NCBI GenBank assembly: GCA_900322135.1
Contig: ONYP01000053.1
Coordinates: 1 to 36,415, forward strand
Source of the DNA: an uncultured Prevotellaceae bacterium
GTDB lineage: Bacteria > Bacteroidota > Bacteroidia > Bacteroidales > Muribaculaceae
DNA length: 36,415 bases
Direction of reading: 5' to 3'
The translations under genes and the position numbers were made by a program. Every line of letters starts with the position of its first letter. Within the stretch, counting starts at the first letter, position 1. This document shows, in pieces, positions 2,659 through 25,987 of the stretch. The notes beneath the pieces were generated by a model that saw only the letters and a program-made list of their open reading frames with translations, searched no databases and was not told the origin of the DNA.

Positions 2659-3105
2659 ATGATTAAAGATATGAAGAATTCATCATTACTTAAACTGTTT
2701 GCCATGGCGCTATTGCTCTTTATGGCGGTGAATGTGGCTCAAGACGGCTACGCGCAGACGATACGCAACAGCAGCAACTCGACGGTTGGCAAAATCGAGA
2801 GTGACGGCACCATCAGGAACAGCAGCAACTCCTACATCGGCAAAATTGACAGCAACGGCGACATCCGCGACAGCAGCAACCGCTTGATCGGGAAAATCAG
2901 CAGTAATGGAGAGGTGCGCAACAGCAGCAACTCCTATATCGGCAAGATTGAGAGTGACGGCACCGTGCGCAACAGCAGCAACTCCTATATGGGAAAAGTC
3001 GAACAAGACGGGACGGTCAGGAACAGCAGCAACAGCACCATCGGCTATGCCCGAGGTGTACCCATGCGCTATGCCGCCCTCTATTTTTTCTTCAACCTGC
3101 TATAG
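2659..3105 (+). CDS. Small secreted protein of six 17-residue repeats, function unknown
   Basis: This gives 148 residues from ATG 2659, or 144 from ATG 2671, where a signal peptide begins directly (MKNSSLLKLFAMALLLFMAV, cleavage probably after GYAQ). The mature protein is six tandem repeats of 17 residues with consensus (T/V)(I/V)RNSSNSYIGKIESDG, so the gene holds 51-nt repeats. It ends in a short hydrophobic tail (RYAALYFFFNLL). The spacing, with polar turns alternating with I-G-K-I strands, suggests a regular beta structure such as a small beta-solenoid; that is inference. I do not recognise a function; similar short repeat proteins occur in Bacteroidales genomes. It is transcribed from its own promoter (2594-2625) and ends at a shared terminator (3138-3174). 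Copy number may vary by recombination between repeats. Confidence 0.75.
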   Translation: MIKDMKNSSLLKLFAMALLLFMAVNVAQDGYAQTIRNSSNSTVGKIESDGTIRNSSNSYIGKIDSNGDIRDSSNRLIGKISSNGEVRNSSNSYIGKIESDGTVRNSSNSYMGKVEQDGTVRNSSNSTIGYARGVPMRYAALYFFFNLL

Positions 3106-3850: not shown

Positions 3851-3899
3851 AGTTAGGAGTTAGGAGTTAGGAGTTAGGAGTTAGGAATTAGGAGTTATT
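3851..3899. repeat. AGTTAGG heptamer array, 7 units
   Basis: Five exact AGTTAGG copies (3851-3885) are followed by AATTAGG and AGTTATT, 49 nt in all. The last unit touches the stop codon of the YqaA-like gene (complement of 3899-3901). The first ends 3 nt before the LUD start codon. The array therefore forms the whole intercistronic spacer. Confidence 0.95.
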
Positions 3900-4366: not shown

Positions 4367-4374
4367 CTGTGATG

Positions 4375-4423
4375 AGTTAGGAGTTATAAGTTAGGAGTTA
4401 GGAGTTAGGAGTTAGGAGTTGGA
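4375..4423. repeat. AGTTAGG heptamer array, 7 units
   Basis: Seven 7-nt units: AGTTAGG, AGTTATA, four AGTTAGG, then AGTTGGA. It is 49 nt long, the same length as the array at 3851-3899. It lies between the esterase stop (4430) and the YqaA-like start (4366). Confidence 0.95.
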
Positions 4424-23402: not shown

Positions 23403-25259
23403 ATGAAAGAATACCTCCATCTCACGGAACAACAAATCGAGGCCTTGAAGAATAAAGACTGCTGGGCGCAGGACTGGAACGACATCATGGTGACCGCCGA
23501 CTTTGACGCCAGCCGCTGCCACCGCGTGCAGTTCTACGGCTGGGCGCGCCTGGGCAACGGGCAGGGCACGGTCGAGATTACCGACGGCTTTGTGAAAAAC
23601 TGCGGCATCTACAACGCCACGCTGCGCAATGTGACCATCGGCGACGGCTGCCTCATCGAGAACATCGGCAACTATATGAATAATGTGACCGTGGGCGACG
23701 GCTGCTACATCTCCAATGTGAGCACCATCGACACCAAGGGCAACCCCGACTATGGCCAGGGGCACACCATCGCTGTGCTCAACGAGGTGGGCGACGGCAA
23801 CCTGCTGCTGCTCAGTGAACTCAACAGCCAGTTGGCCGCCCTGATGGTCAAGCATGGCGACAACAAGCCGATGATGGACGCCATCAAGCGCATGGTGGCC
23901 GAGAAAGTCGAGAAGTCATGTCCCTCCTGCAGCACCATCGGCAACCATGTGCGCGTGGTCAACACCGGTGTCATCACCAACGCCATCATCGACGACGGTT
24001 GCCAGATCTGCGGAGTGTCGCGACTCAACAACTGCACCATCAGCAGTTCGATGGAGAACCCCATCGTCATCCGCACGGGCGTCATCTGCGAGAACACCAT
24101 CATCGGCGGCGGCTCACACCTGTACGGCAGCGTGAAACTCACCGACTGCTTCGTGGGTGAGTCCTGCCACTTGGAGAACGGCTTCACGGCGGCCAGCAGC
24201 GTCTTCTTCGCCAACAGTTACATGTCCAACGGCGAGGCCTGCGCCGCCTTCTGCGGCCCCTTCACGGTAAGCCACCACAAGAGTTCGCTGCTCATCGGCG
24301 CGATGTTCTCATTCTACAACGCCGGCTCGGCGACCAACTTCAGCAACCACGCCTACAAGATGGGTCCCATGCACCACGGCGCGCTCGAACGCGGCTGCAA
24401 GACCGCCAGCGGGGCCTACCTGCTGCTGCCGGCCAACATCGGCGCCTTCAGCGTGCTGTTCGGCAAACTGATGTACCACCCCGACACGCGCGACCTGCCC
24501 TTCTCTTACCTCATCGCCTATGGCGACACGATGTACCTGAAGCCGGGCCGCAACTTCGCCACGGTGGGCCTGTACCGCGACATCCGCAAGTGGCCCAAGC
24601 GTGACAAGCGCTATAAGGGCGAGCACCGCAGCGTTGTCAACTTTGACTGGCTGAGCCCGTTCACCATCAGCGAGGTGTTGAGGGGCAAGAAAATTCTGGA
24701 AAAACTGCGCGCCGCCAGCGGCGACAATGTGAGCACCTACAACTACCACGAGTATGTCATCAAGGCTCCCTTCCTGCACAAGGGCATCAAGTACTATGAC
24801 ATGGCACTGCGCATCTACATGGGTGCCGTGCTCAAGCGCCACAAACCCGTGCCTCCCGTCTCGACCGACGGCGAGGGCAACTGGATCGACCTCATGGGAC
24901 TGCTCATGCCGCAGAGTGCCGAGGAGCGCATCATCGACGACATCATTGCCGGCCGTCTCGACACCATCGACGCCGTCAATGCCCGATTCAAGGAAATACA
25001 CAACAACTACAACGAGTTGAGGTGGTCCTGGAGTTACCGCATCATCCTCGACTATTACGGCATCGACGAACTCACCGAAGAGGCCGTTCAACGCATCCAC
25101 CAGGACTATGTCACTGCACGCCGCGAGTGGATTTCCCTCATACGCCAGGATGCCGAGAATGAATTCACCCTGGGCGACATCGACCGCGAAGTGCTCGACG
25201 ACTTCGTAACCCTCCTCGACCGCGAGGTTGACTTCGAGAACCAGAAACTGTACATGTAA
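23403..25259 (+). CDS. DUF4954 family protein with left-handed beta-helix
   Basis: The 618-residue soluble protein has no signal peptide. Residues about 60-270 carry hexapeptide-like repeats (NATLRNVTIGDGCLIENIGNYMNNVTVGDGCYISNV, GVITNAIIDDGCQICGV, NTIIGGGSHLYGSVKLTDCFVGESCHLENG), as in acyl- or nucleotidyl-transferase beta-helices. The second half has conserved blocks with His and Asp: GPFTVSHHKSSLLIGAMFSFYNAGSATNFSNHAYKMGPMHHG and YLLLPANIGAFSVLFGKLMYHPDTRDLPFSYL. It matches the Bacteroidetes DUF4954 family, sometimes annotated as nucleotidyltransferase-like, but no activity is established. A C-terminal helical region ends with the stop codon inside a hairpin (25256-25280). Confidence 0.85.
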   Translation: MKEYLHLTEQQIEALKNKDCWAQDWNDIMVTADFDASRCHRVQFYGWARLGNGQGTVEITDGFVKNCGIYNATLRNVTIGDGCLIENIGNYMNNVTVGDGCYISNVSTIDTKGNPDYGQGHTIAVLNEVGDGNLLLLSELNSQLAALMVKHGDNKPMMDAIKRMVAEKVEKSCPSCSTIGNHVRVVNTGVITNAIIDDGCQICGVSRLNNCTISSSMENPIVIRTGVICENTIIGGGSHLYGSVKLTDCFVGESCHLENGFTAASSVFFANSYMSNGEACAAFCGPFTVSHHKSSLLIGAMFSFYNAGSATNFSNHAYKMGPMHHGALERGCKTASGAYLLLPANIGAFSVLFGKLMYHPDTRDLPFSYLIAYGDTMYLKPGRNFATVGLYRDIRKWPKRDKRYKGEHRSVVNFDWLSPFTISEVLRGKKILEKLRAASGDNVSTYNYHEYVIKAPFLHKGIKYYDMALRIYMGAVLKRHKPVPPVSTDGEGNWIDLMGLLMPQSAEERIIDDIIAGRLDTIDAVNARFKEIHNNYNELRWSWSYRIILDYYGIDELTEEAVQRIHQDYVTARREWISLIRQDAENEFTLGDIDREVLDDFVTLLDREVDFENQKLYM

Positions 25260-25280
25260 AATGTGCTGCGCACATTTTAC
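25256..25280 (+). terminator. Hairpin overlapping the DUF4954 stop codon
   Basis: GTAAAATGTGC, a 3-nt loop, then GCACATTTTAC: perfect 11-bp stem. The left arm contains the TAA stop (25257-25259). There is no T-run after it; the heptamer array begins 2 nt later. It could act as a terminator, or mark the boundary of the repeat cassette. Confidence 0.55.
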
Positions 25281-25281
25281 A

Positions 25282-25407
25282 GTTTAGAGTTTAGGGTTTA
25301 GGGTTTAGAGAGTACGGACTTTTACTTTGAGTTTAGAGTTTAGGGTTTAGAGTTTAGAGAGTACGGACTTTTACTTTGGGTTTAGAGAGTACGGACTACA
25401 ATTTAGA
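25282..25407 (+). repeat. GTTTAGR heptamer array with 49-nt higher-order repeat
   Basis: Unit 1 (25282-25330) is four heptamers (GTTTAGA/GTTTAGG) plus a 21-nt insert starting GAGTACGGACTTTTAC. Unit 2 (25331-25379) repeats the same 49 nt with two differences by eye. A third, shortened unit (25380-25400) has one heptamer and GAGTACGGACTACA. A last variant, ATTTAGA, is at 25401-25407. The array ends 31 nt before the four-helix-bundle gene. Confidence 0.95.
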
Positions 25408-25438
25408 GAATACAAATTATCGTTAATTGTTTTGAGAC

Positions 25439-25813
25439 ATGGAAACTTATCAGTTTGAGAGGCTGTCGGCATGGCAAAAAGCCAAGGAACTGGCGATTGC
25501 TGTCTATCGGCTCGTGGCCAAGTTCCCACAATTTGAGCAGTATGCCCTCAGCAGCCAACTGAGAAGGTCCGTGATTTCTGTGCCGTCAAATATCGCCGAA
25601 GGAACTGGACGAATATCAAACAAAGAGAAAATCCACTTTCTTGAGATTTCCTACGGTTCTTTACTGGAAACTTATTGTCAATTGCAGATTGCTGTAGAGT
25701 TGTCTTATCTCACTAATGATGACTTAGAGGCGGTCAAGCCCATTTTCTTTGAGACTTCCCGCTTAATCAGCGGCCTGCGCAACAGTTATGCAAGCAAAGC
25801 GAACCCCGCCTAA
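25439..25813 (+). CDS. Four-helix bundle protein (S23/IVP family)
   Basis: The 124-residue protein fits the family often annotated as 'four helix bundle protein' or 23S rRNA-intervening-sequence protein: FERLSAWQKAKELAIAVYRLVAKFP, QYALSSQLRRSVISVPSNIAEGTGR, FLEISYGSLLETYCQLQIAVEL, and a final helix ISGLRNSYAS. Family members are found inside 23S rRNA intervening sequences and at chromosomal sites, and resemble the Avd accessory protein of diversity-generating retroelements. The fold is known as a pentameric bundle; the role is not settled, nucleic-acid binding being likely. Here it sits alone between heptamer arrays that are inverted relative to each other (25331-25361 and 25845-25875). No reverse transcriptase or rRNA gene is in the window. 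I see no clear promoter. Confidence 0.9.
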   Translation: METYQFERLSAWQKAKELAIAVYRLVAKFPQFEQYALSSQLRRSVISVPSNIAEGTGRISNKEKIHFLEISYGSLLETYCQLQIAVELSYLTNDDLEAVKPIFFETSRLISGLRNSYASKANPA

Positions 25814-25844
25814 ACCGTGAGCGATGCGAGCACCAACGCGCATG

Positions 25845-25875
25845 CTCTCTAAACTCTAAACCCTAAACTCTAAAC
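25845..25875 (-). repeat. Inverted copy of the GTTTAGR heptamer array
   Basis: On the minus strand it reads GTTTAGA, GTTTAGG, GTTTAGA, GTTTAGA, GAG. This is a perfect 31-nt match, in opposite orientation, to 25331-25361. The two copies bracket the four-helix-bundle gene, 483 nt apart. Confidence 0.95.
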
Positions 25876-25911
25876 TTCAAGGGGCCGCACCAACAGGTGC
25901 GACCCCTTGAA
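25876..25911 (-). terminator. Terminator hairpin after tRNA-Met
   Basis: TTCAAGGGG and GCACC pair with GGTGC and CCCCTTGAA (small internal mismatch CC/GA, loop AACA). It begins right after the tRNA 3' end on the minus strand. No T-run follows; the inverted heptamer array follows instead. Confidence 0.7.
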
Positions 25912-25913
25912 AG

Positions 25914-25987
25914 TAGCGGGACTGAGAATTGAACTCAGGACCTCCGGGTTATGAATCCGACGCTCTAACCAACTGAGCTATCCCGCC
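25914..25987 (-). tRNA. tRNA-Met (anticodon CAT)
   Basis: The 74-nt cloverleaf on the minus strand has acceptor stem GGCGGGA/TCCCGCT (one G-U pair), D-arm TAGCTCAGTTGGTTAGAGC, an anticodon loop with CAT at 25951-25953 (complement), T-arm CTGAGTTCAATTCTCAG and discriminator A. CCA is not encoded. The first pair is G-U rather than the unpaired base of an initiator, so it is an elongator-type Met tRNA; an Ile tRNA with a modified CAU anticodon is a less likely alternative. Confidence 0.92.

Follow-up and report, generated by a model that had tools for sequence, protein, structure and literature searches.

An S23 gene between facing heptamer arrays: a probable mobile element related to the S23 IVSs of 23S rRNA

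Does a small gene that stands alone between two facing arrays of heptamer repeats form a single mobile element with them, or does it merely sit there? The question is raised by a locus in a 36,415-nucleotide stretch of DNA (the window), contig C108 of a Bacteroidales genome (G000; 3.09 Mb, 145 contigs, 82.6% complete), where an S23 gene occupies the junction between a DUF4954 gene and tRNA-Met (Table 1). The nearest DUF4954 loci come from assemblies that bear the label Prevotellaceae, Muribaculaceae, Porphyromonadaceae or Bacteroidales, and many of these are of ruminant origin by title. S23 is a large family whose function is, to our knowledge, not known; heptamer arrays have been reported in several phyla, and we know of no established origin for them. 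Should the two prove to be the gene and the ends of one element, the function of S23 and the origin of the arrays would become testable together.

An earlier note on this DNA had taken the locus for a compact mobile cassette inserted between a protein gene and a tRNA gene, a proposal that junction polymorphism and empty sites largely support. The S23 gene and its two facing heptamer arrays probably constitute one mobile element, kin of the S23 intervening sequences (IVSs) of 23S rRNA, that has inserted between genes. Comparison of alleles and loci shows presence, absence and inversion at one site, precise insertion in cyanobacterial plasmids, matched end units and what looks like decay to arrays alone. 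Judged by these comparisons, the cassette is a real entity that belongs to a wide family and has moved in the course of evolution.

Table 1. The cassette and its host genes (positions in the window)
Feature	Position	Strand	Basis or remark
DUF4954 gene, host gene to the left of the insertion	23403..25259	+	PF16314, E 2.2e-153
Hairpin over DUF4954 stop codon; 3' arm repeats the gene end in inverted form; associated with the element	25255..25281	+	comparison of alleles
Outer left heptamer array (GTTTAGR); pairs with right array in predicted RNA fold	25281..25312	+	
Inner left heptamer array	25330..25361	+	25331-25361 repeats 25845-25875 exactly, inverted
Additional incomplete copies of the 49-nt composite unit	25362..25413	+	
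S23 (four-helix-bundle) gene, sole recognised gene between the arrays	25439..25813	+	PF05635, TIGR02436; AlphaFold2 model matching 2gsc
Right heptamer array, inverted	25845..25876	-	
Hairpin after tRNA-Met, host feature	25876..25911	-	hairpin kept here in empty alleles
tRNA-Met(CAT), right host gene	25913..25987	-	

The cassette and its protein

The exact 31-nt inverted repeat pair described in the earlier note is indeed present and encloses only the S23 gene; its pairing extends 1 base outward and 0 inward. When the window was simulated 10 times with a first-order Markov model, the longest exact inverted repeat within 600 nt measured 11-13 nt, so the pair lies far beyond chance. The second left copy, the outer array of Table 1, matches the right array at 97%, and the left side of the cassette is organized as a composite unit of 49 nt in 2.2 repeats. 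S23 is the only ORF of at least 80 aa between the arrays, which enclose no gene for a recognised transposase. In the predicted RNA fold of positions 25240-25925, the pairing of outer left and right arrays surrounds the ORF and a hairpin flanks it on each side, with a dG of -248.9 kcal/mol against -187.0 (sd 5.5) in 20 shuffles (z -11.3).

The encoded protein (P0001, 124 aa) matches PF05635 at E 7.5e-35 (119.8 bits, cut-off 33.8) and TIGR02436 at E 2.9e-34 (117.6 bits, cut-off 24), and has no match in the phage collection. Its AlphaFold2 model (pLDDT 95.8) matches 2gsc with a TM score of 0.85-0.90 and also 2rld, entries of five chains each. The match to Avd, the accessory protein of diversity-generating retroelements with the same helical-bundle fold, is weaker: the chains of 4dwl give TM 0.75-0.78 at E about 0.03 and 8ube gives 0.76, with 8-12% identity. 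Among 144 S23 sequences Q40, E54 and E77 are kept at 100% (rounded), Y23, E33, R43, S47, N51 and S74 at 98-99% and R58 at 96%, and 12 columns are invariant in a set of 43; the conserved polar residues suggest an active or binding site.

Occupied and empty sites

Of 277 relatives found, 80 DUF4954 loci were kept, 33 of them at 85% DUF4954 identity or more. S23 is present at the junction in 18 of these 33, forward in 15 and reversed in 3 (L042, L049, L066), and the junction is empty in 7, where the tRNA lies 68-95 nt past the stop codon and the arrays are absent too. Two relatives (L050, L101) have arrays only, between which scraps of S23 remain (read by eye), so these look like deletions; the other six (L048, L052, L054, L057, L060, L061) are arranged otherwise or unreadable. 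The array units vary by species (GTTTAGR, GTTTAAA, GGTTARA, GTTTAAT) and are mostly identical left and right. Three S23 copies are broken, by a frameshift in L046 and L058 and by a stop in L064.

On the DUF4954 tree, whose bootstrap is not fully settled, occupancy has changed at least nine times and orientation at least three, and sister pairs differ at the junction (L039/L040; L050/L069, support 100/100; L059/L101, 99/98). The S23 tree conflicts with that of the host gene: L055, whose DUF4954 is nearest to those of the window and L038, has the S23 and array type of L046, and a grouping of its S23 with those two is rejected (AU p 2e-52). Between L051 and L063, S23 diverges by 0.027 and DUF4954 by 0.166. 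Because occupied and empty alleles of the DUF4954 lineage differ over the whole intergenic stretch, spread between species at this junction could be homologous replacement.

The earlier note had also placed a hairpin just outside each end. Both exist, but they differ in allegiance. The one over the stop codon goes with the insertion: 13 of the 19 alleles that carry S23, counting the window, have it, but 0 of 9 empty or array-only ones, and its 3' arm tracks the gene end of each host. Own arms agree at 96% and arms swapped between alleles at 40%, although unequal length and register also depress the latter figure. Either the flank was thus copied in inverted form at or after insertion, or a palindrome is maintained there. 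The hairpin after tRNA-Met persists in empty alleles and so belongs to the host, for which reason the hairpin pair was rejected as part of a core element.

Two further features of the junction were noted. Six alleles (L042, L046, L049, L055, L056, L059) have, on the side of the tRNA and ahead of the array, an extra hairpin that repeats in inverted form a T-rich stretch beside the host terminator hairpin; by eye, it is absent from the empty alleles L043, L053 and L065. In L054 (6857-7700) a stop-codon hairpin of the same kind and one heptamer are followed not by S23 but by two small ORFs that probably encode membrane proteins.

Empty sites, which the earlier note proposed to look for at the DUF4954 junction, also turned up, in exact form, in cyanobacterial plasmids. 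At site E, within one plasmid backbone whose flanks are 97.5-98% identical, L276 and L278 are empty and L221 and L275 occupied; the insert (428 bp in L221) lies between AAAAAGTAA and GTAATTAAC, and the empty allele reads AAAAAGTAATTAAC. By eye, L277 has an array and a truncated S23 copy at this site, and L280 a miniature with inverted arms and no gene. Sites A, B and D are polymorphic as well. At site B the empty allele reads TAATG, an overlapping stop and start, whereas with the element in place TAATG stands to its left and ATG to its right. A and B are adjoining junctions of one backbone and have different units, and at site D the insertion replaces about 50 nt. The element is about 600 bp long in the window; at the two cyanobacterial sites with the clearest bounds it measures 428 and 506 bp. 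Positions in cyanobacterial plasmids include the interior of the gene pairs nrdB/nrdA, cas6/cas4 and cas10/cmr3 (L218, L219, L220, L224). Related S23 genes at different plasmid sites have, by eye, a common unit (L221, L268 and L269 at 78.5-83.5% identity, L222/L223 at 72.5%, L220/L225 at 74%).

Two other comparisons were rejected as clean empty sites, that of L219 with L279 at cas6/cas4, since the intergenic stretch of L279 is a different one, of about 245 nt, and site C, whose left flank is not colinear. Counted against the element reading is that the target repeats are short (3-5 bp) and differ between sites: GTAA/TAA at site E, ATG at site B, TTCTA at site A (ambiguous with the array), and none definable at the window. 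At gene junctions these repeats may partly reflect selection that keeps stop and start codons.

Inverted arms and matched units at S23 loci

A P0001-like S23 gene is found in 48 of the 61 genomes of the genus set, and 70 S23 loci were fetched of the matches listed (30 given by the search, 40 by place). When the left flank is aligned to the inverted right flank, with a threshold score of at least 14, inverted arms are found at 56 of the 63 loci with full flanks and at 4 of 63 in the direct-sense control; L143, L146 and L180 were left out for short flanks. All four fetched loci of the class at 28-31% identity exceed the threshold. An overlapping first set, which includes one S23 from beyond the genus list (L115), gave inverted arms at 47 of 54 genes and 3 of 54 in direct sense; of the 668 control ORFs that these loci also contain, unrecognised S23 genes among them, 23 had inverted arms. 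The arms are mostly period-7 arrays (exceptions L147, L152, L158, L183). Grouped by their flanking proteins, 67 loci fall into 24 neighbourhoods, and 21 of the 22 tested hold at least one S23 locus over the threshold, the exception being that of L162.

The two ends of a locus also resemble each other in sequence. At 42 of the 52 loci readable on both sides the left and right units agree at 6 or more of 7 bases (direct sense 3/52); between neighbourhoods 9% of pairs agree, and none of 5000 permutations reached the observed mean. The remaining 15 of the 67 loci were unreadable on one side (9) or on both (6: L115, L146, L147, L155, L158, L183). Similarity of the S23 proteins correlates weakly with that of the units (Mantel rho 0.22, 119/5000 permutations, 19 neighbourhoods). 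The earlier note proposed to test whether GTTTAGR arrays flank other S23 genes: those of the genus are usually bracketed by inverted arrays, but GTTTAGR is one unit among many, and S23 genes elsewhere carry other heptamers. Even within G000 the second S23 gene over the cut-off has AGTTAAT/AGTTAAC (inverted score 18.5, direct 9.5), and a single GTTTAGR element with S23 copies throughout the genome was rejected, as no more than two S23 genes of G000 exceed the cut-off and these two differ in unit. The genome also encodes a longer protein whose S23 match is sub-threshold (L031, contig C37, about 2076-2294); it is flanked by CTCTAGATG-type repeats that are similar in both orientations (direct 37.5, inverted 18.0).

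Across Bacteroidota, PF05635 matches 232 of 296 genomes, and 70 loci were fetched of the S23 matches listed. Together with the first plasmid loci, 77 of 78 S23 ORFs were scored (69 + 8), one being dropped for a short flank. Inverted arms occur at 34 of the 69 phylum loci and direct ones at 7, against 7 and 12 of 216 control ORFs, and the excess of inverted over direct scores is marked (Wilcoxon 5e-9); the initial 30 loci, a subset of the 69, gave 12 and 4. Period 7 is the highest among periods 5 to 11 in the S23 flanks (0.62/0.59 vs 0.41-0.49) and is raised too (0.53/0.54) beside control ORFs, which have flanks in common with S23; loci where period 7 is strong both left and right are not tellingly commoner for S23 (3/69) than for controls (5/216). 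Phylum-wide arms are more degenerate than those of the genus. Also counted against the element reading, S23 loci with similar proteins in other Bacteroidota are mostly the same locus in congeners and look vertical, and such close pairs were rejected as evidence of movement.

Among plasmids, 18 of 33 S23-bearing records were fetched, all cyanobacterial; inverted arms are found at 15 of the 18 loci and direct ones at 1, and L220 scores higher in direct (66) than in inverted sense (30.5). With the shorter flanks of the phylum test, 6 of the first 8 plasmid loci pass the threshold.

Movement, relatives and solo arrays

The nearest known kind is the S23-coding IVS of 23S rRNA (e.g. in Coxiella and Leptospira), which likewise has one small S23 ORF between complementary ends that form a stem. 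PMC4990558 describes the Coxiella IVS as 428 nt long, the length of the site E element in L221, with a 28-bp stem, RNase III cleavage and an S23 ORF preceded by tandem heptamers that vary, and mentions earlier suggestions that IVSs were mobile. The elements described here differ in lying outside rRNA, at gene ends and within operons (the window junction has no 23S helix), in bearing arrays at both ends whose unit varies by locus, and in displaying exact empty sites and inversions; their stem is only predicted. What appears new is that S23 elements outside rRNA make up a widespread mobile family with heptamer-array ends. No description of S23 with heptamer arrays as mobile elements outside rRNA was found among the open-licence matches listed. 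If the reading is true, the 23S rRNA IVSs would turn out to be the most familiar members of a mobile family that is far wider and intergenic, with copies in CRISPR and ribonucleotide-reductase gene pairs as well.

On this reading, the arrays would act as the recognised ends of the element and pair in RNA to form a long stem around the ORF, which RNase III would use to cut the insert from the host transcript; insertion at stop codons or inside operons would then do little harm. The S23 protein (each solved relative has five chains) may bind its own array and bring the ends together, whether for its own activity or for a recombination or replication enzyme of the host. Solo arrays would be left behind when the S23 gene is lost, and some of the numerous arrays found at gene 3' ends may have arisen in this way.

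A bolder version, which we find doubtful, makes S23 itself the enzyme of a new class of smallest self-sufficient elements (about 430 bp with one gene of about 115-125 residues). A pentamer would read a freely evolving 7-nt unit as ends, insert at gene junctions and have seeded the heptamer repeats (TAACTGA, GGGNATC, STRR) of Cyanobacteria, Beggiatoaceae, Xanthomonas and Bacteroidota; the S23 loci compared are from Bacteroidota and Cyanobacteria. The cyanobacterial STRR are short tandem heptamer repeats. Favouring it are the conservation of the polar residues E33, Q40, R43, S47, N51, E54, R58, S74 and E77 at 96-100% in the 144 sequences, an element devoid of a partner gene, and the weak correlation of protein with unit. 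We know of no recombinase activity in S23, a point that counts against the element reading as a whole.

It is improbable that the element is moved by a reverse transcriptase in trans, with S23 acting like Avd and the folded transcript being copied into terminator-like sites. Group IIC introns insert beside hairpins and stop codons, a habit that the sites described here recall, and the fold of the S23 model lends this reading some appeal, as does the likeness of PF05635 to Avd noted in PMC10053308. RVT_1 is present in 23 of the 61 genus-set genomes; it was not found, however, in G000 (a draft 82.6% complete), nor in G007, G020, G023, G032, G035 or G036, all with S23 and many GTTTAGN arrays, although drafts are incomplete and the movement may be old. 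A reverse transcriptase in the same genome was accordingly rejected as a requirement, and the dependence on outside enzymes suggested in the earlier note gains nothing from this candidate in G000 or in several array-rich congeners, all of them drafts.

The arrays of G000 invite a different reading. With one mismatch allowed and the arrays of the window taken as a single place, GTTTAGR-like arrays occupy 27 places; the genome has two more S23 matches, and neither coincides with any of the 26 places outside the window. Of the 29 solo array stretches, 25 lie no more than 120 nt past the end of a same-strand ORF. The other three arrangements give 12 to 17, a figure that varies with the minimum ORF length, and a hairpin adjoins 14 of the 29 on the ORF-end side against 3 on the opposite side. 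Solo arrays are thus polar 3'-end features, and the pair in the window fits that polarity. Seen in G000 alone, the locus might be described as a convergent pair of 3' arrays. The arrays would then be ordinary gene 3'-end features (terminator-linked slippage repeats), one for each of two convergent genes of the window, with S23 merely between them and its presence or absence due to homologous exchange of intergenic DNA. This is already disfavoured and seems quite unlikely, given the seven empty junction alleles that lack arrays, the inverted arms in 21 of 22 genus neighbourhoods and their rarity at control ORFs, the units matched left to right per locus, and the armed S23 genes inside plasmid gene pairs, cleanly absent from near-identical plasmids. 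The earlier note had held that S23 homologues lacking such repeats, and repeats mostly away from S23 genes, would refute it if empty sites were also missing: most GTTTAGR arrays of G000 are solo, and arms fall short of the threshold at 7 of 63 genus, 35 of 69 phylum and 3 of 18 cyanobacterial loci, but empty alleles exist.

Array abundance follows S23 across genomes, which were grouped by hand from the S23 search (truncated copies of G019 and G026 included). With phylogeny uncontrolled, the median count of GTTTAGN matches is 19 in the 19 genomes with window-clade S23 (18 non-zero) and 0 in the other 42 (14 non-zero; p 5e-8), and GATTAGN follows another S23 group (median 14 in 15 genomes vs 0 in 46; p 5e-5, phylogeny again uncontrolled). 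The 13 genomes with no S23 match hold 8 GTTTAGN, in 3 genomes, and 0 GATTAGN in total. The specificity of array type for S23 group is incomplete: GATTAGN is raised with window-clade S23 as well (p 0.002), and G006, G021 and G048 have 22-41 GTTTAGN matches despite having no window-clade S23.

That the arrays themselves are the mobile or amplifying unit, for example via a Y1/RAYT-type transposase acting on adjoining hairpins, with S23 a passenger between two of them, is very unlikely: solo arrays do far outnumber S23 genes in G000 and many abut hairpins, and Y1_Tnp is present in 55 of 61 genomes, with five of the six that lack it also lacking S23, but those five are small (2.1-2.6 Mb), a confounder, Y1_Tnp occurs in 8 of the 13 S23-less genomes, poor as these are in GTTTAGN, other ORFs are rarely bracketed, and related S23 genes at different cyanobacterial sites have a common unit. 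The one Y1_Tnp of G000 is on contig C115, outside the bracketed unit. The small genomes with neither Y1_Tnp nor S23 are G013, G028, G037, G045 and G052.

The element with S23 and array ends can also be set beside better-known systems. MITEs and REP/RAYT share with it a gene bracketed by inverted repeats and array-only or miniature copies (by eye, L280, L050, L101), but the ends here are arrays of variable unit and no fixed repeat, and no Y1 or DDE transposase lies inside. Like an insertion sequence or DNA transposon it has inverted ends; clean empty sites were found only in the cyanobacterial kin. The TAACTGA (MacGregor 2015) and GGGNATC (Rehm 2015) repeats are likewise intergenic period-7 arrays polar to neighbour genes, whereas the arrays here are tied to S23 genes. 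Heptamer arrays are described in PMC4679880 and PMC4692102, the latter reporting convergent inverted pairs (70 in Xcc, 75 in Xac); Rehm et al. (2015) report in general no link of arrays with mobile elements, and the term S23 is absent from the main text of PMC4679880 and PMC4692102. PMC8700078 lists four-helix-bundle genes among the unique genes of a strain. The element may explain the source of many puzzling bacterial heptamer repeats.

Several minor observations concern other repeats. In L021, L022, L026, L027 and L033, several solo arrays are fused to a second repeat of type GCTCGCTGCGCTCGCAG as a composite unit, and some are also joined to AGGCATCCGC. Within the window, AGTTAGG arrays in direct orientation stand on either side of a VTT-domain gene (3851-3897 and 4374-4420); since a similar unit flanks the S23 genes of the 28-31% identity class (L184-L187), they may be solo arrays of that class. 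Finally, tandem repeats of 51 nt lie inside the gene of a 5-fold beta-flower protein at 2764-3044 of the window.
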